From NCBI RefSeq assembly GCF_000015825.1, contig NC_009051.1, positions 2,040,695-2,104,694 on the forward strand: a DNA stretch of 64,000 nt, in the 5' to 3' direction. The notes beneath the pieces were generated by a model that was given only the letters and a program-made list of their open reading frames with translations, was not told the origin of the DNA and did no database searches. Numbering within the stretch: position 1 is the first letter of the stretch; each line of letters begins with the position of its first letter. The position numbers and the translations under genes are program-made. Origin of the DNA: Methanoculleus marisnigri JR1. Its GTDB lineage: Archaea > Halobacteriota > Methanomicrobia > Methanomicrobiales > Methanoculleaceae. Below, piece after piece: positions 17,373 to 34,536 of this stretch.

Positions 17373-18302
17373 ATGGTATTGAGTGAGACGGCAGCAAACA
17401 TAAAGAGTATGGAGATCCGGGGCGCCGGCAGGATCGCCCGGGCAGCGGTGGAAGCGCTGGCCGATTATGCCGCAAATCTCGATGCAGCCGACCCCGACAC
17501 GTTCAAGCAGGAGATGGCGAAGGCGGCCGATATCCTCACCGCGACCCGGCCGACCGCCGTCTCGCTCCCGAACGCGGTGCGCTCCGTGATGCGGGCTCTG
17601 GACTCGTTCGATTCGGTAGAAGCCGCACGGGACGCGGTTCTTGCCCGGGCGGCGGAGTTCGTCGACCACTCGGAGCACGCGGTCGAACGAATAGCGGAGA
17701 TCGGGGCACGCCACATCTCCGACGGCGACGTCCTTCTGACTCACTGCAACTCCGAGGCAGCGCTCGGGTGCATCCTGGAGGCCCACCGGCAGGGCAAGGA
17801 GATCGAGGTCTACGCGACGGAGGTGCGGCCCCGGGGCCAGGGGCTCGTCACCATCAGGACCCTGAACAACGCCGGAATCAGGACGAACTACATCGTCGAT
17901 TCGGCGGTCCGCTACTTCATCAACGACGTCGACCTGGTCGTCGTCGGCGCCGACGCCATCGCGGTGAACGGCGCGGTGGTGAACAAGATCGGGACCGCCC
18001 AGATCGCGCATGCCGCACACGAGGCGCGGACGAACGTCATCGTTGCGGCGGAGACCTATAAGTTCGCGCCGCGGACGATCCTGGGTGAACTGATCGAGAT
18101 CGAGGAGCGCGATCCCGCCGAGGTTCTGCCCCGGGCGGTGGCAGAGGAACTCCCCTTCGTCCGGGTCCGAAACCCGGCCTTCGACGTGACGCCCGCGGAG
18201 TACGTCGACCTGATCGTCACCGAGCAGGGCGCGATCCCGCCGGGGCTGGCGTATACGGTGATAAGGGATTATCTGGGGTGGAAGATCGAAGAACTGCGGT
18301 AG
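17373..18302 (+). CDS. Ribose 1,5-bisphosphate isomerase
   Basis: Converts ribose 1,5-bisphosphate to ribulose 1,5-bisphosphate in the archaeal AMP pathway that feeds type III RuBisCO. The 309-residue product has an N-terminal helical domain and the eIF2B-alpha/beta-like Rossmann domain. The presumed catalytic cysteine is in LLTHCNSEA and the aspartate in VVVGADAIAVNG. The start at ATG 17373 is 54 bases from the divergent HAD gene, leaving room for two promoters. The last 67 codons are duplicated about 9.8 kb downstream (27927-28130). Confidence 0.92.
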   Translation: MVLSETAANIKSMEIRGAGRIARAAVEALADYAANLDAADPDTFKQEMAKAADILTATRPTAVSLPNAVRSVMRALDSFDSVEAARDAVLARAAEFVDHSEHAVERIAEIGARHISDGDVLLTHCNSEAALGCILEAHRQGKEIEVYATEVRPRGQGLVTIRTLNNAGIRTNYIVDSAVRYFINDVDLVVVGADAIAVNGAVVNKIGTAQIAHAAHEARTNVIVAAETYKFAPRTILGELIEIEERDPAEVLPRAVAEELPFVRVRNPAFDVTPAEYVDLIVTEQGAIPPGLAYTVIRDYLGWKIEELR

Positions 18303-18314
18303 GGCCCGGATCGC

Positions 18315-19172
18315 CTACTGGAGAAGTGAGTCGGCACGGTTTTCGGCAACCGTTCCGTTCCAGGGAAGGAAAGATACCGTAATGTCCGCTGTCCCGTCCA
18401 GAACGCCGGAAGACGCCAGTGCCTCGCCGGTGAGCGTGTAGCACACTGTCCGGCCGTCGCGATTCGCTTCGACGAGTCCGTCTGCGGCGAGCCTACGCAG
18501 ATGCCAGGCGACTGTGGAACGCGAGATGCCGACGATCTCGGCTATCTCCGACTGCGTGATGCCGGATTTTTCAAGGAGAAGGGCAAAGATCTGCCGACGC
18601 GTGCCGTTCTGGAGGTGCAGGCATACGACCTTCTCGGCCGTATCATAGTCGCCGTTTCGGAAGTAGCCCACCCTGTCGTCTCGATTCAGGGCACTGACCA
18701 GACCGGCCTCCCGGAGGCAGGAGAGGTGGTAACGGATCGTTCCCCGGTTGATCCCGGTGATGCGGGCAATCTCAGCGGGCGCGATCCCCGGGCGGTCCCG
18801 GATGCAGGCATAGATTCGGGACCGTTTCTTGTTGTCCAGGAGGCTGCGTGAAGACCGGTAGCCGAGGTACGCCGTGACGCCGGTAGAATAGACGAGTTCG
18901 AAGGGCATCGCGAGGAGCGGGCAGTGGAGGAGGAGGAGAATGGTGAGCAACTCCATCGGCGGGTAGGACCAGAGCGGCATGAAGAACTCGTCGTCGACGT
19001 TTATCCCATCAGTGGGGAGTTCAGCGGGACCTGGCTCGACGATGATCTTTGCCGTCGCAGGACTCCAGAGGAGGAGCAGGGCCAGGGACAGGACAATGAA
19101 CAGGTCAGCCGCTCTGTGCACGGTCCGGCCCCCTACAGTGCCTCTACATCCATCAGTAGTAATAGATAACAT
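18315..19172 (-). CDS. Membrane-anchored regulator with two winged-helix domains (copy 1)
   Basis: A 285-residue protein with an N-terminal hydrophobic segment (about residues 24-40), a short presumably external stretch, a second hydrophobic segment (about 74-100), then two winged-helix domains. The first has the pattern IARITGINRGTIRYHLSCL (about 139-157), the second IAEIVGISRSTVAWHLRRL (about 212-230). This is the layout of a one-component membrane sensor-regulator: an outside signal could change DNA binding inside. It overlaps the upstream secreted-protein gene by 20 bases. A paralogue with the same layout and neighbour lies at 29653-30468. Signal and target are unknown. Confidence 0.8.
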   Translation of the reverse strand: MLSITTDGCRGTVGGRTVHRAADLFIVLSLALLLLWSPATAKIIVEPGPAELPTDGINVDDEFFMPLWSYPPMELLTILLLLHCPLLAMPFELVYSTGVTAYLGYRSSRSLLDNKKRSRIYACIRDRPGIAPAEIARITGINRGTIRYHLSCLREAGLVSALNRDDRVGYFRNGDYDTAEKVVCLHLQNGTRRQIFALLLEKSGITQSEIAEIVGISRSTVAWHLRRLAADGLVEANRDGRTVCYTLTGEALASSGVLDGTADITVSFLPWNGTVAENRADSLLQ

Positions 19173-19647
19173 TCAGTGTATACTCCGTCCCCTCCTCCGG
19201 AACGTCTTCCCCGAAGATCAGGAACTTCCACGTGCCGGACGGCAGGGAATCGGACCCTGAGAGGGTGAGGGAGATCTTCTCGTCCATCCTTCCGTCGACA
19301 GCGTCACGGTACGGGCCGAGTACACCGCTGCCCGGCGGGGTTATGGTCAGGGCAAGAGAATCGGTGCCGGGATGCTGGTGACCGCTCCAGTCGAGGTAGA
19401 CCTGCAGGGTCCTCACGCCCGACGGCACCGACTTCCAGACGGTCTGGTACTCGTCCGGGTATATCGTGCCGCCGACCGACCGGAGGAGTTCCACCCTGTC
19501 GCTCACATCGTCGGCGGGCGCTACCGCAATCCCACCGGCGGTCTTGCAGGGCAGGGCTGCAGCGCCGGAGACGAGGAGGAGGGAGGTAAGCAGCGCAGCA
19601 ACAAGGATTCTTTCAACAACCTGCGCACTGCACTTCGTTACATTCAT
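19153..19647 (-). CDS. Small secreted beta-sandwich protein (copy 1 of module)
   Basis: A 164-residue protein with a signal peptide (hydrophobic about residues 13-30, cleavage near GAAA-LP). The mature part resembles a PPC/pre-peptidase-like beta sandwich: YLDWSG, DSLALTITPP, VLGPYRDAVDGRMD, then LPSGTWKFLIFGEDV. The same landmarks appear in the product of 29166-29612 (LGPYYDSYDG, PGTWDYEIYGYDV). It overlaps the membrane regulator gene downstream. A role as an exported partner or ligand-binding subunit is inferred from the repeated pairing. Confidence 0.7.
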   Translation of the reverse strand: MNVTKCSAQVVERILVAALLTSLLLVSGAAALPCKTAGGIAVAPADDVSDRVELLRSVGGTIYPDEYQTVWKSVPSGVRTLQVYLDWSGHQHPGTDSLALTITPPGSGVLGPYRDAVDGRMDEKISLTLSGSDSLPSGTWKFLIFGEDVPEEGTEYTLNVIYYY

Positions 19648-20180
19648 GATACCACTATGCTCTATGTCCAGATCCCTGACCTTAAATGTTCTGTGCCGAG
19701 CGTCGAATCGTCATCGGGAAGTCCGCATCACCGTTTTCATCGAATAAGTCTCTGATACCTGCAATACGGACGGTATGGAGACTTTCCAGTGGAAATTATC
19801 CCTGGGCGCAATTCTGAAGGCCGGAATGAGGTTCAGGATCGATACCGGAGAATTTCCAGGGAATGGCAGAACCCGGCAGTTTCATAGGCGCCCCTGGAGA
19901 AACCAACCTGCGACAAGGGGATTATGCGCGCCTATCAAGGAGGCCGCAACCCCTGATATCGGTCCGAGCCACCGAGTCGATATACTACACCCAGATCGTC
20001 TTCCATCCCCATGACCCGAACCACGACGACGCGCACGCGCACCGGGATACAGCCAGAAGACCCACAATATTACAGATTTTACGCATCAGCGGAACGTATG
20101 CGGATTTCAGTTCTAAATATGCACCACGCCCCCAGGAAAGAGATTTGGATCGATTTCTACCAAAAACCCCCCATATCAGT
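19648..20180. other. Intergenic region without a supported gene
   Basis: About 530 bases between the module 1 promoter side and the first leader repeat. Overlapping short open frames exist on both strands (for example 19863-20204, with a histidine-rich stretch), but none has a ribosome site or a recognisable protein pattern. It may be decayed coding sequence. Confidence 0.4.
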
Positions 20181-20458
20181 CATGGATCGGGGCGAACGTT
20201 GTAAACTGGGAGGAATCAGCGGGTCAAGGCCGCGATGACAATTCGAGAGTGAGCACAGAAACGTTAAGATGAGGAACGCCGATGTCTCGAACGATGATAC
20301 CGCACGCGGTATCCCGCGGGGGCCGGGAAGCTCGATTGGCGTCGTGTCCCGGCTCCCGCAGCGTGCCCGGAGGGCCAATAGGGCTGTTGGCCGCCATCAG
20401 GGATAGCCATTGCGGTTCCGTGGCCTCCCCGGGACACGCGTGAACGAGGTGAAAAACC
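20181..20458 (+). repeat. Leader repeat copy A (upstream of a secreted-protein gene)
   Basis: Member of a dispersed repeat found in six places between 20 and 34 kb. Stem 1 is the hairpin GATACCGC/GCGGTATC (20296-20303 with 20306-20313, 2-base loop). Stem 2 is an 11-bp helix between GGGGGCCGGGA and TCCCGGCTCCC flanking a conserved loop (CTCGATTGGCGTCG). The distal part ends in CCGGGACACGC and a GAGGTGA ribosome site just before ATG 20459. It shares GACAATTCGAGAGTGAGCAC with copy C. Confidence 0.85.
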
Positions 20459-20980
20459 ATGAGAAGAACATTCCTGATTGGCATAGCCGCACTCTTCGTG
20501 CTGCTCTGCATAGGAGGGGTTTCGGCGGAGGGAATGGCTGAACTGGCCGTATGTACCCAGCCCTCGTCGCCGGATGTGAGCGATACCACGGACGCTGAAG
20601 TACTTTCTGGAGAGTCTTCTGGAGAAATCGGCATACGGGATGTCGCTACGTTCCCCTTTGGGAGTACCATCACTGAATCGCAGCCAAGCCGGACCTTCCA
20701 GTTTGCTGTGCCTTCCGGTGTCTACAACTCCATTCAGGTCGACATGAAATTCTACCGGGTCGATGGCGAATGGAGTGACCTGCGGCTAAAATTGGTCGAC
20801 AGCAACAACCGTATCCTCGCACAGGATGACGGGCCATGGATCCCGTTCACCGAGAATGGTGAGCGTCACGTGCGGTACGACCAGCGTCTCCAGGAGGGCG
20901 ATATCTATCGGGTTGTCGTCGAGAAAATCAGTCTTGCCGGAGATACCTGGTTCGATGGAACGGTTAAACTCCAGACGTGA
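20459..20980 (+). CDS. Small secreted protein with leader repeat A
   Basis: A 173-residue protein starting MRRTFLIGIAALFVLL with a clear signal peptide (cleavage near VSA-EG). The mature part is Ser/Thr/Asp-rich, then a beta-rich domain (TFQFAVPSGVYNSIQVDMKF, WSDLRLKLVDSNNRIL). GAGGTGA lies 6 bases before the ATG. No known enzyme motif. The beta domain is loosely similar to the secreted proteins of the two regulator modules. The gene's promoter and leader come from the repeat family. Confidence 0.75.
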   Translation: MRRTFLIGIAALFVLLCIGGVSAEGMAELAVCTQPSSPDVSDTTDAEVLSGESSGEIGIRDVATFPFGSTITESQPSRTFQFAVPSGVYNSIQVDMKFYRVDGEWSDLRLKLVDSNNRILAQDDGPWIPFTENGERHVRYDQRLQEGDIYRVVVEKISLAGDTWFDGTVKLQT

Positions 20981-21081: not shown

Positions 21082-21192
21082 AGGGGGCAAAATGGATCGG
21101 ATGCCTCGACATGTAACTGATCGGGCCGGAAAAGGGATATGGAGGAACGTTGAGTTTTCAACCATCAATGCTGAAGGCGGCGCCTGCAACGT
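21082..21192 (+). repeat. Second repeat family, copy 1 (promoter-like element)
   Basis: About 75-110 bases closely related to 30585-30700. Shared landmarks in order: GGGCAAAATGG, GCATGTA/ACATGTA, GGCCGGAAAA, an ATAT box, AACGTT-AGTT and GGCG-CGCCTGCAACG. The GGCCGGAAAA + ATAT part looks like an archaeal BRE/TATA promoter. In this copy the gene downstream is broken. Confidence 0.65.
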
Positions 21193-21474: not shown

Positions 21475-22479
21475 ATGTCCATAACCCGGAGCAACCAAGC
21501 AGCTCCGAGTGGCCTACTGACGGTGGCCGGTAAGGAACTTACCGACCACCTGACGAACTGGACGTTTCTTGCCTTTGCGCTCCTGCTGATCGTGGTCTGC
21601 ATCCTCCCTTTCCAGCAGGGTCTCGGCGGCTACCACGCGACGGCCCGGGCATACGCCGCCGGCCCCGCCATCACCCCCTGGGGTGTCGAAGAGTTCGGTA
21701 GCAGCCTTCCGAACGCCGCGGACGTTTACACCCGCCTCCCCGGAGAACTCTCTACCGTCGGGGCAATCCTTGCGATCGCCATGGGGTTCGATCTCATCTC
21801 ACGGGAGCGGCAGACCGGTTCGCTCAAGTTGCTCCTCGTCCGGCCGATCTTCCGGGACGAGATCATCACCGGCAAGGCGCTTGGGGGTCTTTTTGCCCTG
21901 ACGTCGCTCGTCTTCGCCGGGCTTGCCGCCTCGCTGGGTTTCCTCCTTGTCGACGGGATCGTGCCCGACATGGACGCTCTGGTCTCGATCCTGCTCTTTG
22001 CGCTCGCAACGGTTGCTTTTCTGGCATTCTACTTCTGCCTCGCCCTGACCATCTCGACGGTGGTTCCCCGGACAGGGAAGGCTTTCCTGTACGCGCTGGT
22101 GGTGTTGTTCATCTTCACCGCCCTTGTCCCGACGGCGAGCGCGGTTGCGAAGGACGTCGTTGTCGGGGCTCACCCCCTCCCGGGCGCGAGTCCCGCCGAA
22201 CGGGGAGACTACCAGGCCCGGCTCGGACTGCTCGAGAGCGTCGCGACGGTCTTTTCGCCGCAGTGGAACTACGAACTGGTTGCAAAGAGCGTCCTTGAAC
22301 CACGGCTCACCAGTTACTCGTTCATCGAGGGCTCCATAACATATCTCCCGTATGACGAAACAGCCCGCCCGACGGACGCCCTCGCCAGGTTCTGGCAGAA
22401 CGTGCTGGTGCTTTTCACAGCACCGTTCGTGCTCTTCGGGATCGCGTATATAGCGTTCCAGAGGATGGATGTCCGGTGA
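21475..22479 (+). CDS. ABC-2 type (NosY-like) permease 1
   Basis: A 334-residue membrane protein with about six hydrophobic segments. It carries the cytoplasmic loop typical of ABC-2 permeases of the NosY group: GFDLISRERQTGSLKLLLVR followed by PIFRDEIITGKALGG (about residues 103-137). A large external loop lies between segments 5 and 6 (about 225-295). ATG 21475 has GGTGA 7 bases before it. It is directly followed by a second permease gene. No ATP-binding subunit gene is adjacent. The substrate is unknown. Confidence 0.85.
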   Translation: MSITRSNQAAPSGLLTVAGKELTDHLTNWTFLAFALLLIVVCILPFQQGLGGYHATARAYAAGPAITPWGVEEFGSSLPNAADVYTRLPGELSTVGAILAIAMGFDLISRERQTGSLKLLLVRPIFRDEIITGKALGGLFALTSLVFAGLAASLGFLLVDGIVPDMDALVSILLFALATVAFLAFYFCLALTISTVVPRTGKAFLYALVVLFIFTALVPTASAVAKDVVVGAHPLPGASPAERGDYQARLGLLESVATVFSPQWNYELVAKSVLEPRLTSYSFIEGSITYLPYDETARPTDALARFWQNVLVLFTAPFVLFGIAYIAFQRMDVR

Positions 22480-22486
22480 TGCGCCA

Positions 22487-23500
22487 ATGAAAATCGACCT
22501 CTCTCGTGTAGCGATCATCGCACGAAAGGAGTTCGCCGACCACCTCACCGACCGGACGTTCCTCCTGGTGCTCGCGCTCTTCGGCATTCTGACTCTCTTT
22601 GCCCTGGAGCGAGGCCTTGCCAGTTACACGAATGCAATGGAGTGGTATGTGTTTCTCCTGGAGAGGGCGGCGCGTGCCGACCACTTATCGACATCGCCGT
22701 TTACATCTTCTCCTAACCTCCCATCGGTGTTGTGGATCTTCCTCGGCGTAGGGGAAAAGTTCCTCCTCTTCGGGCCGTTGCTCGCGATCGCCGTGGGGTT
22801 CGACCTCATCTCCGGGGAGCGTTCGACCCGGTCGCTCCGGATGCTCCTCTCCCGGCCGGTCTATCGCGACGAGGTCATCACCGGAAAGGCCGTAGGCGGC
22901 GCCGTCGTGCTGGTGCTTGCATCGGCCGTGCCGTTCATCCTGGCGCTGGGTGCGGTGCTCGTCGCCGGGCTTACCGTCACCCCTCATGATGCGGCAATCG
23001 TGGTGCTCTGCTGGGGCGCCACGATCCTCTACCTGCTCGCGTACTTCGGCGTCGCCGTTGCATTCTCCGCATTCAGCGAAGACGGCGGCCGGGCGCTCGC
23101 CTGGGCGATGGCGATCTTCATCCTCTTCTCGGCGATAGTGCCCGTCGTTGCAGAGAGTTCGGCCGTCTCAGCCGCCGGCCCCATCCCGGCGTGGCCCGGC
23201 GACAATCCCACGCCGGACGAGGTACAGCAGTACCTGGAGGAGAGGAACGATCGCAGCGCGACGTACGACGGTGTCAAGAACACCATTCTGGCACTCAGCC
23301 CCAACGGCAACTATGAAACGATGATAAAGATGCTGGGGTCCCTTCATTCCGGCGGCGGGGACGGGGGAGCCGTTGCGGAAGAATCTGGTCTCAAAGATGT
23401 GCTGGGCCGATTCTGGCAGAATATCGTCGGTCTCGTTGCGTTCCCGATGATCTTCCTCGCCGTCGCCTATGTGCGGTTCATGCGACTCGACCTGCGGTAA
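22487..23500 (+). CDS. ABC-2 type (NosY-like) permease 2
   Basis: A roughly 337-residue paralogue of the preceding gene, with the loop GFDLISGERSTRSLRMLLSR and PVYRDEVITGKAVGG and about six membrane segments. It ends FMRLDLR, the same C-terminal signature (R-M/L-D-x-R) as the other permeases here. ATG 22487 is preferred since GGTGAT, complementary to the archaeal 16S tail, precedes it by 7 bases; ATG 22469 is the alternative. It is translationally linked to permease 1. The two probably form a heterodimer, needing an ATPase encoded elsewhere. Confidence 0.83.
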   Translation: MKIDLSRVAIIARKEFADHLTDRTFLLVLALFGILTLFALERGLASYTNAMEWYVFLLERAARADHLSTSPFTSSPNLPSVLWIFLGVGEKFLLFGPLLAIAVGFDLISGERSTRSLRMLLSRPVYRDEVITGKAVGGAVVLVLASAVPFILALGAVLVAGLTVTPHDAAIVVLCWGATILYLLAYFGVAVAFSAFSEDGGRALAWAMAIFILFSAIVPVVAESSAVSAAGPIPAWPGDNPTPDEVQQYLEERNDRSATYDGVKNTILALSPNGNYETMIKMLGSLHSGGGDGGAVAEESGLKDVLGRFWQNIVGLVAFPMIFLAVAYVRFMRLDLR

Positions 23501-23654
23501 CAATCTGGATGCAAAATGACAACAATGTTGCATTTTCCGATAATATGCAGGGCCGCCCCGAAAACCCGGCTCCGCCATCCGGGATGAGACGTACGGGTGA
23601 CAGCGACGCAGAGTCGATACACCCTCGGCGGTACATGGCACGAACATTTCATTC

Positions 23655-23880
23655 ACGCGCCCCGGGAGGCCATGGTACCGCAATGGCTATCCCTGATGGC
23701 GGCCAAAAGCCCTATTGCCCCTCCGGGCACGCTGCAGGGGTCGGGAGACGACGCCGATAGAATTTCCCGGCCCCCGCCGATTGAGACATCGGCGTTGCTT
23801 CCCTTAACGTTTCTGTGCTCACTCTCGAATTGTCGATGGTGTATCCGGCCCCTTGTGTCCCTCCTATCTGCAGCAATCGC
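23655..23880 (-). repeat. Leader repeat copy C (minus strand, no intact gene downstream)
   Basis: The reverse complement matches copy A over most of its length, including GACAATTCGAGAGTGAGCAC, the stem 2 arms with one mismatch, and the distal GGGATAGCCATTGCGG block. Stem 1 is missing; a different 6-bp hairpin GCCGAT/ATCGGC takes its place. Downstream on the minus strand there is no credible secreted-protein gene, so this copy appears orphaned. Confidence 0.7.
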
Positions 23881-24099: not shown

Positions 24100-25164
24100 T
24101 CACCGGATATCCATCCGCACAAACTTCCTGTATGCGGCGGCGAAGAAGACCGCCGGGAAGACGATCAACCCCGTGATACCTGCCCAGACACTGCCAAGCG
24201 GTTCCAGGAATGATTCCTCTCCCGGCGCAGAGATGAAATCGGTCAGGTCCTGGTAACTCTTCTGCGGCGAGAGGAGCGTGACAACGTTGGTGATGAGTCT
24301 CTTCTTCGCGGTATACGCCGCCAGATCCTCCTGGTAGTCTCTCAGCGCTTCACTCCATACAGAAGCCTGCTGCCCGGAATCGTCACGTTGGACGAACGAT
24401 TCACCAGCAGAGGTGGAGACATACATCTCCACGGGGATCACTTCGGGTTGCTCGGGACGTTGCGGCGGCGGGCCTGCGACGAGCCCTCCAACCATCGCCC
24501 CGAGCACCGGGAGGAGCGACGAAACAACGAAAAAGATCACCAGAGTGAAGACCAACGCGTTCCCGCTCTCCCGTGTGACCGTCGAGAACGCGAGAGCAAC
24601 GGCAAACCAGGCGACCAGGAAGAGGAGCGAGATCGCCCCGAAGATCAGGATGGCGACGACCTCGCCCGCCGTCGGCACGATCGAGAGGATGAGAAGAAGG
24701 CCGGTGATGATGGCGAGGACGAGCCCCACGATGACTCCCAGGGCGGCGGCACCCCCGAGCGCCTTGCCGACGACGACCTCGTCGCGGTAGACCGGGTGCG
24801 CAAGGAGGGTTTTGAGCGACCTGCTCTCCTTCTCGCGGGTGACCTGGTCGAACCCGGCGGCGATCGCGAGCAGTGCTCCGAGCGTCACTGTGGTGCCGGC
24901 CATGGAATCGAAAATGAGCAGGACCGAAGGTCGCTCAGGCATCTCAAGCCACCAGGCCCCAAGGTCCTGCAGATTCCGGTACTCGTCAGCCGCCTGCAGC
25001 GCGTCGTTGTACGAGGTCAGGGCGGAATCGTAGCGCTCGAGTCCCTGACCCGTACCGACCATGGCGATGATGAGATACAGGAAAAAGATCAGGAGGAACC
25101 GCCGGTTCGTAAAGAGATCGGAGAGCTCTTTTGCGGCGACAGTGAGGCTGCGTTCTATGGTCAT
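24100..25164 (-). CDS. ABC-2 type (NosY-like) permease 3
   Basis: A 354-residue permease when started at ATG 25164 (MTIERSLTVAAKELSDL). About six membrane segments, the loop GFDQVTREKESRSLKTLLAH and PVYRDEVVVGKALGG, a large external loop near residues 225-310, and the C-terminus KFVRMDIR. It is on the opposite strand to permeases 1 and 2. No partner ATPase gene. The sequence after its stop (TGACGGCCAGGTGGGCTGAC) resembles the sequence after permease 4 and after the remnant at 25335-25520, showing these are duplicated units. Confidence 0.83.
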   Translation of the reverse strand: MTIERSLTVAAKELSDLFTNRRFLLIFFLYLIIAMVGTGQGLERYDSALTSYNDALQAADEYRNLQDLGAWWLEMPERPSVLLIFDSMAGTTVTLGALLAIAAGFDQVTREKESRSLKTLLAHPVYRDEVVVGKALGGAAALGVIVGLVLAIITGLLLILSIVPTAGEVVAILIFGAISLLFLVAWFAVALAFSTVTRESGNALVFTLVIFFVVSSLLPVLGAMVGGLVAGPPPQRPEQPEVIPVEMYVSTSAGESFVQRDDSGQQASVWSEALRDYQEDLAAYTAKKRLITNVVTLLSPQKSYQDLTDFISAPGEESFLEPLGSVWAGITGLIVFPAVFFAAAYRKFVRMDIR

Positions 25165-25334
25165 GGTCTGCTTCCCGGATTCTGGTCCCGGCAACGGATA
25201 CTCTCCTCCGGGTCAATAGGTGACCCCATCAAGAACAAGCCCTGGAAGACTTCACAGCGTATCGCATGACATTTGCCCATGCAGATTTTCAGGGTGAAGA
25301 TCTTTTGGCATCAAAACCCGGTGCTTCGGTGTCT

Positions 25335-27025: not shown

Positions 27026-27604
27026 TCAACTCCTGGTTACATTTCCTTGTGCGTCGATCGAGAACGTCGCCTCAGGCTGTGTCCTGTGGTCAGGGAGGCC
27101 ACAATTAAATACTCCAATTATTTCGTAGATCTGCACTGTCGTGTCCTCTGTGTTCGTCCCGTAGGGCATCTGCCAGTCCCCGGGTCTGATATTCAGATTG
27201 GCATACTGGTAGAACTTCCAGCTGGAGAATGCGTCCGTATTGCCTCCGAGGAATTCAGCGCAGATCGCATGGCTGAGTCCCTGGGCGCTGTTCTTGACAC
27301 GCGCCAGATAGAAGTCTAGATCGAAGGTCCCCTCTATGTAGCAGTGCTCGGGGCAGCCGTCCCTCTCCATCCAGTAGCAGCCCGCCAATTTCTGGAGATA
27401 TGTGAGGCATTTCCGGGCCCGGGCATACCGGATCAACATGTTCGGCAAACAATCGGCACTGTACCAGGATCCCGAGCCGCCCCCGCAGTCGGGAAGCCCA
27501 TGTCGGTAATACGAGATCGGGAAGGGCAGATACGCGCCTGTCGACGCGTGACAGTCCCTATCCGAGGTGTCTTTTTCCGGTGTCATTTCCGTTTCCCCAT
27601 TCAT
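27026..27604 (-). CDS. Cysteine-rich hypothetical protein behind leader repeat B
   Basis: A roughly 192-residue protein starting at ATG 27604 (or 27610), immediately after leader copy B. It has nine cysteines spread over the first 180 residues, several Cys-Gly or Cys-Pro contexts (PDCGGGSG, DGCPEHCYIEG), and is rich in Tyr and Trp. There is no signal peptide with this start, although other genes behind the leader encode secreted proteins; its signal may have been lost. No family recognised. Confidence 0.6.
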   Translation of the reverse strand: MNGETEMTPEKDTSDRDCHASTGAYLPFPISYYRHGLPDCGGGSGSWYSADCLPNMLIRYARARKCLTYLQKLAGCYWMERDGCPEHCYIEGTFDLDFYLARVKNSAQGLSHAICAEFLGGNTDAFSSWKFYQYANLNIRPGDWQMPYGTNTEDTTVQIYEIIGVFNCGLPDHRTQPEATFSIDAQGNVTRS

Positions 27605-27877
27605 GTGCATCCCGGAAAGGCCACGGAACCGCAACGGCTATCCCTGATGGCAGCCAACAGCCCTATTGCCCTCCGGGCACGCTACGGGAGCCGGGACACG
27701 ATGCCGATCGAGCTTCCCGGCCCCCGCGGGATACCACGTGCGGTATCATCGATTGAGGCTTTGTTGTTTCTCTTAATACCTTTTCTGTGCCAACCATCGA
27801 CATGTCTGAGCGTTGGAAGGCCCCGGATCGGGAATATTACCAGTTCTGCAGATACTCCGTCACTCGCCCCGGATGTC
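27605..27877 (-). repeat. Leader repeat copy B
   Basis: Minus-strand copy. Stem 1 reads GATACCGC/GTGGTATC in RNA sense, a G-C pair changed to G-U relative to copy A. Stem 2 is as in copy A. TTGGCACAGAAAAGGTATTAAGAG upstream of stem 1 looks like the promoter end and is shared with copy D. The far end still contains ATGGACATCCGG, the last codons of a permease gene, so the ancestral unit was permease-leader-secreted protein. Confidence 0.82.
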
Positions 27878-27926
27878 CATCTGCACAAGGCACAGAAACT
27901 GTGTGAAGACGAACAACGATGTCTCG

Positions 27927-28130
27927 ATCGAGGAGCGGAACCCCTACGAGGTTCTGCCCCGGGCGGTGGCAGAGGAACTCCCCTTCGTCCGGGTCAGGAA
28001 CCCGGCCTTCGGCGTGACGCCCGCGGAGTACGTCGACCTGATCGTCACCGAGCAGGGCGCGATCCCGCCGGGGCTGGCGTTCACGGTGATCCGGGACTAC
28101 CTGGGGTGGAAGATCGAGGAACTGCAGTGA
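27927..28130 (+). pseudogene. Duplicated 3' end of the ribose-1,5-bisphosphate isomerase gene
   Basis: Encodes a 67-residue match to the last 67 residues of the isomerase at 17373-18302 (residues 243-309), from IEERNPYEVLPRAVAEELPF to the stop, with only a few changes. The nucleotide match is high but not identical, and many differences are silent, which suggests descent from a diverged allele or selection before truncation. It lacks the catalytic part and cannot be functional as an isomerase. Confidence 0.92.
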
Positions 28131-28240: not shown

Positions 28241-28669
28241 TTAACGAAAACTCGTCGCGGAGATCCGAAACGCCCCCTCACCCGCTTCCTCCACGTCGAA
28301 CGAGACGGACAGGGCCTTTGTACCGGCCCGGTCCATGGTGACGGATTCGCTGTACGGCCTGCCCGCGGCATCCCGGACGGTCAGCGTGAACGAGGCGCGG
28401 GCGGGATCGAAGATGCCGCAGTTCCGGTTGGCGCAGGTCACCGTAAACGTGTTCCTCCCGAGCCCGGCCACGACATCCGTGCCGGAAGAGGCGACCGTCT
28501 CGTTGAGGTCCGAGTCGATCCAGGCCCGCCCCAGGGGATGGGTGCCGGCGGTGATGTTCTCGCAAAAGACGATACGCCCGCTCGCGGTGTCTATAACGTG
28601 TACCTCTCCGTCCGGCCAGAACAGCGTAACCGCCATACAGGCCACCGCGATGAGAAGGACTGGAATCAC
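28241..28669 (-). CDS. Small membrane-anchored extracytoplasmic protein
   Basis: A 142-residue protein from GTG 28669 with an N-terminal hydrophobic segment (IPVLLIAVACMAVTLFW) and a beta-rich remainder: VHVIDTASGRIVF, VAGLGRNTFTVTC, ASFTLTVRDAAGRPY. Two cysteines (TCANRNC) could pair outside the cell. No known family recognised. It lies on the strand and side expected for a gene driven from leader copy E, but about 230 bases intervene. Confidence 0.6.
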   Translation of the reverse strand: MIPVLLIAVACMAVTLFWPDGEVHVIDTASGRIVFCENITAGTHPLGRAWIDSDLNETVASSGTDVVAGLGRNTFTVTCANRNCGIFDPARASFTLTVRDAAGRPYSESVTMDRAGTKALSVSFDVEEAGEGAFRISATSFR

Positions 28670-28904
28670 GGCTCCTGAAAATATGTTCCCGGCTCAATTG
28701 TCATAACGGGCCTCCGTGCGATCATGAGGACGGACAGGGGCGGCCCCTGCCCGTCGCCCCGGCCGCCGCCCACGTTCCGGGCAGTTCGGTGTGAACACGT
28801 TCCATCCCACCGGCACGGAGATAACGCCGCAATCGACAGCGCCACGGTGGATGAGCTGATGCCGAAGAGGCATTTTGACCTCAGGGTTTCGAACAACCAT
28901 TCAT

Positions 28905-29068
28905 GCGCATCCCGGAGAACACGGGCTCACAACCACTATTCCCGCCAGCAGCCCCATGTTCTCCGGGTACGCCCCAGGGGCAGGGACACGACGCCAATCG
29001 AGGGTCTCAGCCCCCGGTGGGATCCCGCATGCGGTATCCACGCCTTTTTGTCAGGGAAAGGGCCCCAT
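28905..29068 (-). repeat. Leader repeat copy E (diverged)
   Basis: The most diverged copy, on the minus strand. Stem 1 persists as GGATACCGC/GCGGGATCC with one mismatch; the stem 2 loop block CGATTGGCGTCGTGTCC is intact. The distal part is replaced by a long GGAGAACA/TGTTCTCC helix. It starts just inside the minus-strand arm of the divergent promoter element at 29073-29126. Confidence 0.65.
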
Positions 29069-29072
29069 ATAA

Positions 29073-29126
29073 TTTACGGCCACTGCAGCTACATATCGCT
29101 CGACATGTAGCTGCAGTGGCCGTAAA
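29073..29126. promoter_or_regulatory. Perfect 22-bp inverted repeat between divergent promoters
   Basis: Arms at 29073-29094 and 29105-29126 are exact reverse complements of 22 bases with a 10-base centre. Each arm ends outward in GGCCGTAAA followed by an AT-rich box (ATATAG at about 29131-29136 on the right; ATTATAT read leftward near 29066-29072), giving two divergent archaeal promoters with a shared symmetrical site. The right promoter serves the secreted protein/regulator module 2 (ATG 29166); the left one faces leader copy E. It is a strong operator candidate. Confidence 0.75.
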
Positions 29127-29165
29127 AAACATATAGTTGTCTTTGAAAGCCCTCTACGACGCCCT

Positions 29166-29612
29166 ATGAAACCTTACAGAATCGCAACGGTTATCATGAT
29201 CACCGCGGCACTGCTGATCCCGGCCGTGGCAGCGCAGGGGACAGGAGGTCATAACTACATCGTAACCCCGATCGGGGACGAACTGCTCAAAGAAAAACCG
29301 CTGCCTGCACTGAGGAGCTACGACACCATCACGCAGGGTGAGACGGATGAGTTCTCGAACTACATTCCCCCGGGCAAAACGGAGCTCGTCCTCGACCTGA
29401 ACTGGGGCGACCCATCCGACTCGCTTCGACTGATGATCTACGCTCCCGACACCGTGCTCGGACCGTACTACGATTCGTACGACGGCACGTTGGACGGAAG
29501 GATTCGCCTGCGCATAAAGGACTCCGTCGGCCTGTACCCCGGGACGTGGGACTACGAGATCTACGGCTATGACGTGACCGGGACCGAGGACTACACGTTT
29601 GGCTGGCGGTGA
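29166..29612 (+). CDS. Small secreted beta-sandwich protein (copy 2 of module)
   Basis: A 148-residue protein with a signal peptide (IATVIMITAALLIPAVAAQ) and a PPC-like mature domain: ELVLDLNWGDPSDSLRLMIY, VLGPYYDSYDGTLDG, YPGTWDYEIYGYDV. It is a paralogue of the product of 19153-19647 and has the same downstream neighbour. The transcript would begin only some 10-15 bases upstream of the ATG. PPC-type domains typically occur on secreted proteases and surface proteins; here the domain stands alone. Confidence 0.75.
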   Translation: MKPYRIATVIMITAALLIPAVAAQGTGGHNYIVTPIGDELLKEKPLPALRSYDTITQGETDEFSNYIPPGKTELVLDLNWGDPSDSLRLMIYAPDTVLGPYYDSYDGTLDGRIRLRIKDSVGLYPGTWDYEIYGYDVTGTEDYTFGWR

Positions 29613-29652: not shown

Positions 29653-30468
29653 ATGGTGCGGTGGAGCCGGATCTTTTCCATTCTCTTCGTTGCCGTGACC
29701 TTCGCGGGCATTTCGCTCCCGGGCACGGCAACCGCCGGTTACGCGGTCGAACCGGCGTTGGAGGGTTACCCCGGAGAACTATACGACTTTGAGAAGAGCA
29801 CACTTCAGGAAAAACCGCTCCTGGTGATGTTTTTCCACTGCCTGCTCGTGATTCTCCCCGCATGCTTCTTCCCCGGCGAACTCCTCTACATTCTCAGCAT
29901 CTTCCTGCCGTTCGGTTTCCGGCGGGTAACGAAACGAACCATCCTCGACGACGACTTCCGGCTCAACCTCTACCGGAAGATCGCCGCAAACCCGGGTGCC
30001 GGTGCCGTGGAGCTCGGCGAGATGACAGGTGTATCGAGAGGAAGGCTCCGGTACCACCTCAACATGCTCATCCGGGAGGGAAAGGTGGCTGCCGTGGATT
30101 ACCGGAACCGCACGGGCCACTTCGCGCGTAACCAGAGGCATACCGATCTCGAGCAACGTATTCTCATCAGCCTCCGGGAAGAACCCTCCAGAACGATCCT
30201 CAGGTACCTCCTCGGGTCTCCGGAAACAACGCGGAACGACGTCGCGGAACGGCTCGGGCTCACCGGTTCGACCGTCTCCCAGCACATGCAGGAACTGAAG
30301 ACCGAAGGGATCGTCACTGTAGGCAGGGACGGGCGGTTCGTCCGCTACAGGCTCTCCGAAGATGCCGAGGAATTCTTCAATCAATGTCTGGATGACCTCC
30401 CTATCTCCAGGCATCCCAGCACAGGGAATTATCGCGCCACAAGAGGCCACGAGGACTCGTCGGGTTAG
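29653..30468 (+). CDS. Membrane-anchored regulator with two winged-helix domains (copy 2)
   Basis: A roughly 271-residue protein from ATG 29653; a TTG at 29599 would overlap the secreted-protein gene by 14 bases. Two hydrophobic segments (about residues 6-25 and 60-85) flank an external stretch. Two winged helices follow: LGEMTGVSRGRLRYHLNML and VAERLGLTGSTVSQHMQEL. The same architecture as 18315-19172, though identity is limited to the helices and general layout. The pairing with an exported beta-sandwich protein occurs twice in the window, which argues that the two proteins work together. Confidence 0.8.
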   Translation: MVRWSRIFSILFVAVTFAGISLPGTATAGYAVEPALEGYPGELYDFEKSTLQEKPLLVMFFHCLLVILPACFFPGELLYILSIFLPFGFRRVTKRTILDDDFRLNLYRKIAANPGAGAVELGEMTGVSRGRLRYHLNMLIREGKVAAVDYRNRTGHFARNQRHTDLEQRILISLREEPSRTILRYLLGSPETTRNDVAERLGLTGSTVSQHMQELKTEGIVTVGRDGRFVRYRLSEDAEEFFNQCLDDLPISRHPSTGNYRATRGHEDSSG

Positions 30469-30584: not shown

Positions 30585-30720
30585 CGGAGGGCAAAATGGG
30601 TCGAAACGCCCTGGCATGTAGGTGTTCTGGCCGGAAAAAGTATATAGAAAAACGTTTAGTTCTCCACCGTAGGCGCCGCAGGCGACGCCTGCAACGGTGC
30701 GGAGGTTCACCCGGCCACTA
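30585..30720 (+). repeat. Second repeat family, copy 2, with cruciform
   Basis: Matches 21082-21192 (GGGCAAAATGG, GCATGTAGGTG, GGCCGGAAAAAGTATATAG, AACGTTTAGTT). GGCCGGAAAAAGTATATAG (30629-30647) is a good BRE/TATA promoter. It is followed by a 15-base palindrome GCAGGCGACGCCTGC (30678-30692) nested inside CACCGT/ACGGTG, and then leader copy F. Confidence 0.7.
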
Positions 30721-30734
30721 GCGAATCGGATGGG

Positions 30735-30841
30735 TGAACGTCCCGCGTGCCCGGAGGCTAATGATGCAGTTGGCTTCCATCAGAGATAGCCATTGCGGTT
30801 CCATGGCCTCCCGGGACACGCATGAAAGGAGGAATGAAACC
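30735..30841 (+). repeat. Leader repeat copy F (3' half only)
   Basis: Contains only the distal third of the leader: GCGTGCCCGGAGGC pairing with GCCTCCCGGGACACGC around GGGATAGCCATTGCGG-like sequence (here AGAGATAGCCATTGCGG), then AAAGGAGGA and the ATG. Stems 1 and 2 are absent and are replaced upstream by the promoter and cruciform of the second repeat family. Confidence 0.75.
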
Positions 30842-31445
30842 ATGAAACCAAAATTCCTCTCCGGAATCGGCGCCCTGTTTGCGGCGCTGCTGATCGTCGG
30901 CGCGATCTTCGTGCCGGCGGTGAGTGCACAGCCCCGTGAGTCCGTGGAGGTCGTCACGACCGACGAAGCCACACTAAGCCTGATCGACGAACTGTGGGGG
31001 ACGGATATCACCATCGGAGAGTATCTCGAAAAGGTGCATCCTGAGTTCCTCACCGACATGTCCGACGATGAAAAGGCGGATGTGTACCAGAGGAAAATGA
31101 CATGGTCGGCCACCAATCTGCAGAGTACAAACACGCGAGCCGCATCGTCAGTAGTGGTCCATGCTATGGATATCGAAGAATAGCTCTTTCATTAATTTCG
31201 GTGGAAGTAACCGGTTCTACGGCGACGAGGTTCCGAGTTACATCTATGTGGAGGCGTTTTTGAGGAACAGTGCTGACCAGACGGTGAGATCAACCTCACG
31301 CAGCGCTTGTAACGTGAAATACGTCGAGGCGACGAACATGATTGCCTATCCAGAGGATGACAACTATAGGGCCTATGCGTGGAGTTACGCCCTCCCAGCG
31401 AACGTGGAAGATCAGGAGTGGACAGGATGGGTAACGTATCCGTAA
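30842..31445 (+). pseudogene. Secreted protein gene split by a frameshift
   Basis: The first frame starts MKPKFLSGIGALFAALLIVG with a signal peptide (cleavage near VSA-QP) and stops at 31183. A second frame overlapping from 31161 continues with plausible protein (NFGGSNRFYGDEVPSYIYVE, then AYAWSYALPANVEDQEWTG) to 31445. A single-base shift near 31170-31183 would join them into one protein of about 200 residues. GGAGGA lies ahead of the start. It may be a broken gene or a sequencing error; the two frames are otherwise free of lesions. Confidence 0.65.
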
Positions 31446-31553: not shown

Positions 31554-32560
31554 ATGAAACAATACAGTGGCATGACTATCAACAAAATCGGTTACACACT
31601 CGCGGCGGTGCTTCTCCTCCTTGCCTGTGCGGCGGCATCGCCGGGGTGTGTCGGGACGGATGCCGGCAGACACGGGCCGGCTGCACCGACGTCGCCGGAG
31701 GCGACGGTGTCACCCCGGGAGACACCGGCCCAATCGCCGTCGGACGGCCGGATCGGCGAGGGGGAAGCGCGCTCGCTTGCCGCGGCCGCACTGGAACGGG
31801 AGATCCCGGGATCCGGATCGAACGGATGGCCGCCGAGCCGAACGACGTGCAGACCTATGGCGACGTCTGAAGGTTCCGGGTGAAAGCGGAAGACGACCCC
31901 GACCCGGAAGGCGATATCATGGTATCGATCGATGCCGCCGACGGAGAGATGGTGTACTTCCAGGATAGCCGGGACTATTACCGGTCTGCCGACCCTGCAA
32001 TCACGATCGATGCGGCGGAGGAGATCGCCGATGCGTATCTCCAGGACCGAAACGAGCGTTCGGGCGTCGTGAAGATCGTCGCAGTACTCTCTACGGTGGA
32101 TACACCGCTGGGTTTGCGAAACGGCCCGTACCATTTCGTGTATCAGCGCTCGATCGACGGCGTCCTCTGCCAGTCCGACAAGATCATCCTTGATATCGAT
32201 TCGATCAGCGGTCGCGTCGTCTCTTACTCTAAATTCTGGAAAGTGTCAAACAACGACACCATGGCCGATCCGGAACCTTCGATCCCGGAAGACGCGGTAC
32301 AGGAACGGGTTCTGACGTACCTTCACGATACCTACGGCACGGACCCCGGCGAGATCGTCATCAGGTCGACGGAACTGCAGTGGTACGACCTGATCGCACG
32401 ACAACGCCCATCAAAGGAACCGGTCGCGGTGCCTCTTGCCTGGCGCATCGAATTCGACGATGAACGGTACCGCTCGCAGGACCCGCCGCGAACGGCCCAG
32501 ATATGGATAGACGCCCATTCCGGAGAGGCTCTCTTTGCATCTTACAACCCGGGGAGGTAA
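31554..32560 (+). pseudogene. PepSY/YcdB-like lipoprotein gene with frameshift and in-frame TGA
   Basis: Begins MKQYSGMTINKIGYTLAAVL with a lipobox-like end (ASPGC) and AGGGAG ahead of the ATG. Coding continues to EREIPGS near 31808, then shifts frame: deleting one C from a CCC-GGG context is the simplest cause. The restored frame reads RIERMAAEPNDVQTYGDV, meets TGA at 31868-31870 (TGG expected), and continues RFRVKAEDDPDPEGD to 32560 without further lesion. The C-terminal 226 residues, with two PepSY-like units (AAEEIADAYLQDR; DPPRTAQIWIDAHSG), could be translated from GTG 31880 but would lack a signal. Ends 8 bases before permease 4. Confidence 0.75.
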
Positions 32561-32567
32561 CGATCCG

Positions 32568-33633
32568 GTGGAAGACGAGAGAATGGCAGACCGGGTACCC
32601 GGTCCGAACCGCACGCTCCTCGTGGCGGGGAAAGAGTTTGCCGATCACCTCGCGAGTCGGCGGTTCACCCTTGTCCTCCTCCTCTTCCTGATCCTCTGTT
32701 CCGTCTCCCTCTACGAGGGTGTCGAGAAGTATAGCGAGAAACTCGCGGCATACTCCGACGGTACCGTGCCGGTGCCGAAATTCCTGGGTTACCCCGGCTG
32801 GATGCCGGAGAAACCCTCACTCCTCGTAGTCTTCCTCAATCTCTCCTCGCAGGTCCTGAGCTACGGCCCGCTGCTTGCGATCGCGACCGGGTTCGACCTG
32901 ATCACGCGGGAACGCTGGTCGGGTTCGCTCAAAACCCTCCTTTCCCGTCCGGTTTTCCGCGACGAGATCATCACCGGCAAGGCGCTCGGCGGGTTCGCCG
33001 CCCTGACGCTGGCGATGAGCATCGCGGTTCTCATCGCGCTCGCCCTGCTCCTGCTCTTTGCAATTGTCCCCTCACCAGCCGAGCTCGGAGCGATCCTGGT
33101 CTTCTGGATTGTTTCGCTGGTGTACCTCTTCACGTTCTTCTCGGTCGCTCTCCTCGCCTCGGCGGTCGTTGCCGAGAGCGGGAGCGCTCTTGTCTGGTCG
33201 CTGGTCGCGATCTTCGTCTTCTCCTCCGTCGTACCGATGGCCGGTGGCATCCTTACCGATGCGGTTGCCGGAACGCCGCCGGATGTGGTGGATCTTATGA
33301 GCGACCCGCATCCCACCGAGGAGGAGTGGCTGCAGTACCGGGAGGAGGAGCAAGTCTATCTCGAACAAAAGGAACGTGTCGGAGCGACCATCCGCCTCCT
33401 CTCGCCACAAAGGAATTACCAGGAACTCTCGATAGCGATCACCAATCCACGGTTCTCGATGTGGATCAACCCGGACCCCTTCGCCTTGAGAACACCCCCC
33501 CGGGGAAGAACCGCTCCCCGACCTTCCCGACCTGATTGCTCTCATCTGGCAGCCGATCGTCGCGATGCTTGCGTTACCGGCGGTCTTCTTCGGAGCGGCA
33601 TACACCCGTTTCATACGGATGGACATCCGGTGA
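32568..33633 (+). pseudogene. ABC-2 type (NosY-like) permease 4, frameshifted at a C7 run
   Basis: A permease of the same family as 1-3: GFDLITRERWSGSLKTLLSR, PVFRDEIITGKALGG, about six membrane segments, start at GTG 32568 behind GGGGAGGT. The frame is lost at a run of seven Cs (33495-33501). With six Cs it would read TPPGEEPLPDLPDLIALIWQ and end RFIRMDIR at 33633, like its paralogues; as written it runs on to 33785 in a non-permease frame. The loss removes only the last membrane segment. This could be a real lesion, phase variation or a base-calling error. Confidence 0.8.
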
Positions 33634-33681
33634 CGGCCGGGCGGTCAGCCCGCCCGGAATGCACTCACCCCGCCTGCCGCC

Positions 33682-33972
33682 GGCATCCGGGGCGAGTGAC
33701 GGAGTATCTGCAGAACGGGCCATATTCCCTGTTCGGAGCCTTCGAGTGCCCGGACGTGTCGATGATTGGCACAGAAAAGGTATAAAGAGGAACAACAAAG
33801 CCTCAATCGATGATATCGCAAGCGGTATCCTGCGGGGGCCGGGAACCTCGATTGGCGTTGTATCCAGGCCCCCAAAGCGTGCCCGGGGGCTGATGGTGCT
33901 GGCGGCTGCGAACAGGGATAGCCGTTGCAGTTCTGTGGCCTCCTGGAGCCTGCGTGAAAGGAGAATTGAATC
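33682..33972 (+). repeat. Leader repeat copy D
   Basis: Follows permease 4 and precedes the gene at 33973. Stem 1 is GATATCGC/GCGGTATC (33812-33819 with 33822-33829), a C-G pair changed to U-G. In stem 2 the G-U of copy A is G-C, with one new mismatch. TTGGCACAGAAAAGGTATAAAGAG is the promoter-like block shared with copy B. It ends in AAAGGAGAATTGAATC before the ATG. Confidence 0.83.
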
Positions 33973-34536
33973 ATGAAACAGAACAAGATCTTCAGAATGT
34001 GTGCTGCCGCCGTCATCGGCCTGCTCCTGGCCTGCATGGCGGTGGTGCCGGTCAGCGCAGAGAACGATCCGACCCGCGTCATACCTGTCGATGGGAACCT
34101 GACACGCATTGCGCCCGTAGATCCGGACCTGACCACTATCATGTCCGTTGACGGGAACCTGACATGGGTCCATGTCATACCCGTCGACGGCGGCTCGCTC
34201 GTCATCGACGAAGGAGGAGGGACAGACTGCACCGCATATGCAGGCTCATGGTTCGTCGAAAACCATGTACCGGGATCGGTTTACCGGTTCGTCGTGGAGT
34301 GCGAATACGCCGACGCCAACCGTGCAATCGGAGAGATGGCCGAGTTCCGGCTGGAAGGCCCGGATGGTGCGGTAGATACATGGTCCATAAACGACACCCC
34401 GTTCTTCAACGACGACTGGACGGGAACGCTGTCGGTGGACTTCATGCCTGAGCGTCCCGGTGCGTACCACTGGGAGATCGCGTGCGATAAAGGCGGAGAG
34501 AGCGCCTCGTCGCGAGGGGATCTCATCTTCCGGTAG
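33973..34536 (+). CDS. Small secreted protein with short N-terminal repeats
   Basis: A 187-residue protein starting MKQNKIFRMCAAAVIGLLLA with a signal peptide (cleavage near VSA-EN). The first 45 mature residues contain four or five repeats of a VIPVDGNLT-like unit (VIPVDGNLTRIA, PVDPDLTTIM, SVDGNLTWVH, VIPVDGG). A beta-rich domain with two cysteines follows (YRFVVECEYADANR, YHWEIACDKG). Behind leader D. It belongs to the same exported family by leader and signal, but the mature domain is unrelated to those at 20459 and 30842. Confidence 0.75.
   Translation: MKQNKIFRMCAAAVIGLLLACMAVVPVSAENDPTRVIPVDGNLTRIAPVDPDLTTIMSVDGNLTWVHVIPVDGGSLVIDEGGGTDCTAYAGSWFVENHVPGSVYRFVVECEYADANRAIGEMAEFRLEGPDGAVDTWSINDTPFFNDDWTGTLSVDFMPERPGAYHWEIACDKGGESASSRGDLIFR

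Follow-up and report, generated by a model that had tools for sequence, protein, structure and literature searches.

The intergenic region upstream of module 2 of Methanoculleus marisnigri JR1 contains a long inverted repeat, which raises the question whether this sequence is a regulatory site, a nucleic acid structure or the end of a mobile element, and which protein might recognize it. In the 64,000-nucleotide stretch of DNA that was analyzed as a whole (hereinafter, the window), the two arms of the repeat (29073–29094 and 29105–29126) are exact reverse complements of 22 bp each, as the earlier note had claimed, and the repeat spans 54 bp in total; when one mismatch is allowed, the arms extend to 26+26 nt around a center of 2 nt. 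This is the longest perfect inverted repeat in the window, the runner-up having arms of 10 bp (with a spacer of up to 20). In 30 simulated 64-kb sequences (first-order Markov), the longest arms are 9–12 bp, and the expected number of arms of at least 22 bp is 3e-7.

The repeat consists of two half-sites that abut at the center, and archaeal promoters (BRE/TATA) face outward on both sides, so that its description as the center of divergent promoters is supported (Table 1). AT boxes lie outside both arms. The accompanying proposal that the whole promoter is mirrored holds for the operator but not fully for the TATA boxes: in eight gap-free orthologous sites, the left TATA box is about 2 bp closer to the repeat than the right one. 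Each half-site follows a plan that comprises a distal box, GACRTGTAGnnG, a proximal box that touches the BRE, and a TATA box at a fixed spacing. The proximal box is GGCCGTAAA in the module 2 repeat and CACAGAAA at other sites, and at every site it merges with the BRE (GTAAAA/GAAAA). The repeat is probably a bidirectional operator, that is, two copies of the promoter element of one regulon placed back to back, with the BRE and TATA box of each pointing outward.

Table 1. Features of the repeat region and of the related sites, with positions in the window unless a locus is given
Feature	Position	Strand	Basis or remark
54-bp inverted repeat, two putative operator half-sites head-to-head	29073..29126		gap-free in 8 species
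Right half-site TCGACATGTAGCTGCAGTGGCCGTAAA, towards module 2	29100..29126	+	
Left half-site GCGATATGTAGCTGCAGTGGCCGTAAA, towards leader copy E	29073..29099	-	
TATA box CATATAG, rightward promoter	29130..29136	+	sequence; ATATAG/ATATGG conserved in 8 species
TATA box TTATAT, leftward promoter	29066..29072	-	sequence and 8-species alignment
Half-site, GGCCGGAAA type	21106..21132	+	
Half-site, GGCCGGAAA type, before leader copy F	30611..30637	+	
CACAGAAA-type site with TATA box, before leader copy D	33753..33784	+	
CACAGAAA-type site with TATA box, before leader copy C	27775..27806	-	
Weaker CACAGAAA-type site, before leader copy B	23803..23834	-	
Weaker CACAGAAA-type site, before leader copy A	20237..20268	+	
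CACAGAA-type site, before module 1	19681..19712	-	
Secreted PPC-like beta-sandwich protein, module 2 first gene	29166..29612	+	AlphaFold model, Foldseek
Module 2 candidate regulator, hydrophobic N-terminal segments and two winged-helix domains	29653..30468	+	Pfam, hydropathy, AlphaFold, Foldseek
Module 1 secreted protein, 37% identity to module 2 counterpart	19153..19647	-	
Module 1 candidate regulator, tandem winged-helix	18315..19172	-	Pfam, hydropathy
Leader copy E, decayed ORF start behind	28885..29016	-	
Exported protein, next open frame of leftward unit	28241..28669	-	no Pfam match
Leader copies in the window	20316-20462 (+), 23637-23777 (-), 27585-27727 (-), 33832-33976 (+), 28885-29016 (-), 30738-30845 (+)		
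Leader copies beyond the window	L192:8420-8561, L198:3080-3221, L202:4015-4160		

The fragments of the same site that had been noticed near 21082 and 30585 are real and represent half-sites (21106–21132 and 30611–30637) that match CATGTAGNTGNNNTGGCCGNAAAA with 2 and 0 mismatches, respectively. Five further related sites, beyond those of the earlier note, lie at 19681, 20237, 23803, 27775 and 33753; those at the promoters of leader copies C and D show the same plan by eye, with a different proximal box, GGCACAGAAAA. A scan of about 128,000 window positions with a matrix trained only on 22 CACAGAAA-type sites, two of them from the window, places the nine promoter sites of the region at ranks 1–9, seven of these being untrained, in support of a common regulatory element at several promoters. 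The arms of the palindrome occupy ranks 8 and 9, with scores of 5.6 and 4.8, and rank 10 is close at 4.2, so that, for the arms, conservation across orthologues is the stronger evidence. Two sites escape the matrix, namely the right arm of G028, which scores -13, and, in G029, the site of module 2b, which was spotted by eye.

Orthologues of the module 2 protein, with 56–74% identity, are present in several genomes of the genus. In eight orthologous upstream regions, that of the window included, the alignment of the two half-sites and the two TATA boxes is free of gaps and yields the consensus ATATAG-TTTACGGCCACYGCAGCTACGTATCGC / GCGACATGTAGCTGCRGTGGCCGTAAAAGGCATATAG. Conservation is 92–95% in the outer 16 nt of each arm, compared with 78% in the left flank. 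The symmetry of the arms ranges from 20 to 26 of 27 positions; the extreme is represented by the perfect 22 bp of the window and a similar site in G017, the two most symmetric genomes retaining 25/27 and 26/27. Such retention of a 54-nt near-perfect repeat is compatible with a structural role, as a DNA cruciform or as an attenuator or terminator hairpin in RNA. However, the repeat is located upstream of both TATA boxes and hence outside both predicted transcripts, and symmetry falls to 20/27 in other species, yet the motif persists in each half-site. Moreover, covariation between the arms is not above that of shuffled columns (119/500 for double-change pairs and 58/500 for the covariation score), which suggests that each half-site is conserved for itself rather than for base pairing. 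Hairpin and cruciform were rejected given the location and the lack of covariation, and a structural role is very improbable. In an Rfam search, the repeat matches only MIR7526, a spurious hit to an animal miRNA (32.7 bits vs a gathering score of 110).

The 54-nt mirrored pattern, with up to three mismatches, is found in 8 of the 199 genomes of the order, all of which possess module 2, and a ninth genome, G024, retains a decayed, degenerate version. Overall, 9 of the 10 module 2 genomes carry the mirrored site (one of them degenerate); the exception is G014, in which the module 2 copy lies directly behind another winged-helix gene. Mirrored canonical distal boxes in other locations (CTACNYGTC-N0-30-GACRTGTAG) are detected in 0 of 40 genomes, which indicates that this layout is confined to module 2. 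Inverted repeats often mark the ends of mobile elements, and the region is rich in duplicated modules; nevertheless, a mobile-element end or a recombination site is the least probable of the explanations considered, given that the half-site recurs singly at promoters at a fixed distance from the TATA box, that the mirrored site keeps one syntenic position, always before module 2, and that no transposase or recombinase is found among the genes examined beside the repeat. Two individual loci deserve mention. The module 2 orthologue of G017 (L011, G017:C52:40457-41263) contains an in-frame TAG despite the most symmetric palindrome, and in G034:C157 the entire divergent site is present twice (L069:12641-12694 and 15847-15900, 3.2 kb apart). 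The search for related loci returned two loci only.

The motif is not scattered at random through the genome, an outcome that would have refuted the reading of the earlier note. The box-neutral pattern CGACRTGTAGNNG-N10-AAANNNTWTA identifies 20 genomic sites, both arms among them, vs 0 in the reversed control; likewise, GGCACAGAAANNNTWWA and GACRTGTAGAYGNNNKNCACAGAAANNNTWTA have 17 and 23 genome matches, respectively, vs 0 in the reversed control in each case. When one mismatch is allowed in the box-neutral pattern, nearly all genomes of the genus among the 199 of the order are positive, with 1–12 sites each (about 30 of the 35 carry the element), and the control yields 0 in 199 genomes; G046, from a different family, has 6 matches, and a few other genomes have one or two. 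By these pattern matches, the predicted element is shown at about 25–30 promoters of the M. marisnigri genome and throughout the genus, and is genome-wide and genus-wide rather than local. The genome-wide counts rest on pattern searches and fetched stretches, and the gene calls on simple ORF heuristics. In most cases, the first gene downstream of a site codes for a membrane or secreted protein, codes for a DrrA-like ABC ATPase and precedes an ABC-2 permease gene, or belongs to a regulator module. Sites of the GGCCG type are present in 8 of 9 module 2 genomes vs 5 of 31 others, G024 being counted among the others (p = 1e-4, uncorrected); some such sites occur where there is no module 2 orthologue, in G015, G027, G030 and G032, which counts against the favored explanation. 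Matches to ACATGTAGGTGCGGTAGCCG in many genomes were set aside because the proximal box is broken (TAGCCG) and the matches represent one near-invariant sequence, presumed to be conserved coding sequence. A cluster of more than 12 promoter sites of the same class is located in G000:C1:77009-135437 (L192-L194), where it surrounds a third tandem winged-helix regulator (~84.3-85.1 kb) and genes for reprolysin-like and other exported proteins.

The first gene of module 2 encodes a small secreted protein whose AlphaFold model (pLDDT 80) is matched by Foldseek to subtilase domains, GOLD and collagen-binding beta-sandwiches; a paralogue of this protein matches Pfam PPC with a score below the cut-off. 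For the second protein, Pfam reports HTH_24 and HTH_HVO_0163_N, the AlphaFold model has a pLDDT of about 90 across residues 100–240, and windows at residues 4–28 and 53–89 pass 1.6 in a hydropathy scan. Its C-terminal winged helix resembles the ArsR/SmtB fold, and no PDB entry was seen to match both winged helices as a close pair. The tandem winged-helix family has six members in the M. marisnigri genome and is present in 145 of the 199 genomes of the order. The gene for a translation initiation factor 2B-like protein (17373-18302) has its 3' end (18098-18300) duplicated at 27926-28128, with 92% identity; this marks a segmental duplication, by which the second module may have been created. Paralogues of the ABC-2-type permease are found at 21475-22479, 22469-23500, 24100-25194 and 32535-33785, with no adjacent ATPase gene seen.

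The putatively membrane-anchored tandem winged-helix proteins of these small-secreted-protein and regulator modules are plausible candidates for binding the element. The site exceeds the 95% shuffle level at 19 of 22 loci of this type, many of which are mutually orthologous, and is typically located 33–66 bp before the first start codon of the operon. In M. marisnigri, a site found by pattern alone occurs within 2.5 kb for four of the six tandem winged-helix genes (2/20,000 under random placement and 19/20,000 under rotation of the whole set). The three genomes of the genus that lack the tandem winged-helix family also lack the site (p = 6e-4, uncorrected for phylogeny and for the 80–87% completeness of these three genomes). 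Outside the genus, several sites per genome are seen only in the genus of G046, where the best site is 33 bp before a small-protein and regulator module. In other genera, such sites are lacking for many tandem winged-helix genes, and therefore either the operators would have diverged or a different protein is the regulator. In the latter case, an unrelated cytoplasmic factor would bind the element and the tandem winged-helix genes would merely be regulon members, their operons carrying the element like any target; the many genomes with tandem winged-helix genes but without the element are compatible with this possibility. It appears rather unlikely, given that regulator and element co-occur within the genus and that the proximal boxes vary with the neighboring group of regulators.

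This variation is a hint of specificity. The second recognition helix contains a conserved H, and the residue before it is W in the groups with a CACAGAA-type box, which comprise module 1, the 84-kb, 1254-kb and 1753-kb groups and, with Y instead of the H, G046. In module 2, with its GGCCGTAAA box, this residue is Q, R or H, or D in the second copy of G029; the W is also absent from the 2156956 group. G029 has two module 2-like paralogues, each with its own variant of the site in its own neighborhood. Both observations run against an unrelated factor. Because the proximal boxes differ (GGCCGTAAA in module 2 vs CACAGAA in module 1), the proteins of the two modules may not be interchangeable. 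The hypothesis that the recognition-helix residue is linked to the proximal box rests on few independent changes. A bolder, tentative proposal is a shared two-box code, in which the first winged helix would read the common distal box and the second one the paralogue-specific proximal box (CACAGAA vs GGCCGTAAA), the regulators being membrane-tethered and each paired with a secreted PPC-like sensor. If so, paralogous regulators would be insulated within one cell, and two units would be tied to a single membrane-bound regulator through the palindrome of module 2.

On the other side of the palindrome, the leftward unit of G019, G029 and G002 comprises a leader RNA and, behind it, the ORF of a secreted protein. 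The start of this ORF has decayed in the window, where 28241-28669 is the open frame that comes next; the decay of the ORF behind the left promoter in M. marisnigri counts against the bidirectional operator. All nine leader copies seen in the genome are directly downstream of a promoter site of the regulon. The leader RNA family (~145 nt, two predicted hairpins) has no Rfam match; double changes are seen in 6 of 33 predicted pairs, and several copies end at the start codons of secreted-protein genes. The spacing of UAS and BRE is important in the gvp promoters (PMC4390858), and the two sides of the palindrome, with the left TATA box about 2 bp nearer, may therefore respond differently.

Under the proposed mechanism, both half-sites of the palindrome would be occupied by the module 2 protein, probably as a dimer or a pair of dimers, which would bring its own operon and the unit of the leftward leader RNA under joint control. 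The secreted PPC-like partner might be an external sensor or ligand, which is the weakest part of the scheme. Repressors are common among ArsR-like winged-helix proteins, and the same operator could serve for repression, with the protein covering the BRE/TATA of both promoters such that module 2 is under negative autoregulation and the leftward unit is shut off. The resemblance of the C-terminal winged helix to this repressor family speaks for such a role, as does the merging of the proximal box with the BRE, which makes TFB occlusion as natural as recruitment; furthermore, the BRE looks strong, and TFB recruitment might be unneeded. Repression is a serious possibility, albeit not the favored one, because the extra box under the strongest constraint is found upstream of the BRE, at a fixed spacing, and not over the TATA box or the start site. 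Known archaeal activator sites are likewise located upstream of the BRE at a fixed spacing (PMC5937170, PMC4390858, PMC10665913). Activation through recruitment of TFB/TBP is the first choice, given the position of the element immediately upstream of the BRE, and can be considered slightly better than an even bet. Few methanogen regulators have known sites, and the results point to a genus-wide promoter element with a concrete candidate regulator for methanogen surface-protein, ABC-exporter and leader-RNA genes. Operator specificity can be tested directly on the paralogues, which naturally differ in their proximal boxes. In the open-access literature subset, no published operator was found for this regulator family.

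Comparison with known systems reveals several partial likenesses. The GvpE consensus, TGAAACGG-N4-TGAACCAA, has no match in the palindrome site. GvpE acts at the UAS_A/UAS_D elements in the divergent haloarchaeal gvpA-gvpD promoters, a layout that is similar to the one described here in that two outward archaeal promoters each have a two-part element beside the BRE, the elements meet centrally, and one of the two divergent units encodes the regulator (here, a candidate) (PMC4390858). A site adjoining the BRE of both opposite promoters is present in eight species, a likeness of layout only. The differences are that GvpE is leucine-zipper-like and its UAS halves overlap by 7 nt (PMC4390858), whereas here the half-sites abut, the consensus is distinct, and the adjacent candidate is a predicted membrane-anchored tandem winged-helix protein, not a leucine-zipper-like activator.

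TFB-RF1 of Pyrococcus binds an activator site just upstream of the BRE and regulates an ABC exporter operon as well as its own (PMC5937170). The site described here is similarly upstream of the BRE at a conserved distance, and the putative regulon includes an ABC exporter, but the TFB-RF1 site is a short palindrome, TCTG-N5-CAGA (PMC5937170), without a match in the palindrome site, in contrast to the asymmetric two-box site at each promoter here. EarA of Methanococcus and Pyrococcus, a euryarchaeal winged-helix activator, binds upstream of a weak BRE (PMC10665913, PMC5512572); the candidate belongs to the same broad protein class and its presumed site is also upstream of the BRE, although the EarA box TACATA is present in only 2 of the 8 orthologous sites and is not conserved. 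The closest biology is that of ArnR and ArnR1 of Sulfolobus, membrane-bound one-component regulators of surface-structure genes that recognize inverted-repeat boxes; they resemble the putatively membrane-anchored candidate but consist of an N-terminal HTH followed by C-terminal TM helices (PMC6396743), whereas here the hydrophobic segments are N-terminal. The ArnR box TCGAC-N5-GTCGA has no match in the site. Finally, transmembrane transcription regulators (TTRs), which combine a DNA-binding domain and a hydrophobic membrane segment in one protein, are reported in a survey to be enriched in Methanomicrobia (PMC10269533). The regulators of modules 1 and 2 contain a predicted DNA-binding domain, in this case two winged helices, and differ by this pair of domains and by the secreted partner gene; the available part of the survey describes no operator or regulon for this family (PMC10269533). 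Given that the known motifs are absent and the EarA box is not conserved, the element is assigned to none of the GvpE, TFB-RF1 and ArnR systems: the closest layout is that of GvpE, the closest placement that of TFB-RF1, and the closest biology that of ArnR. "Works like the bidirectional site of GvpE" is a fair description by analogy, with no membership claimed.
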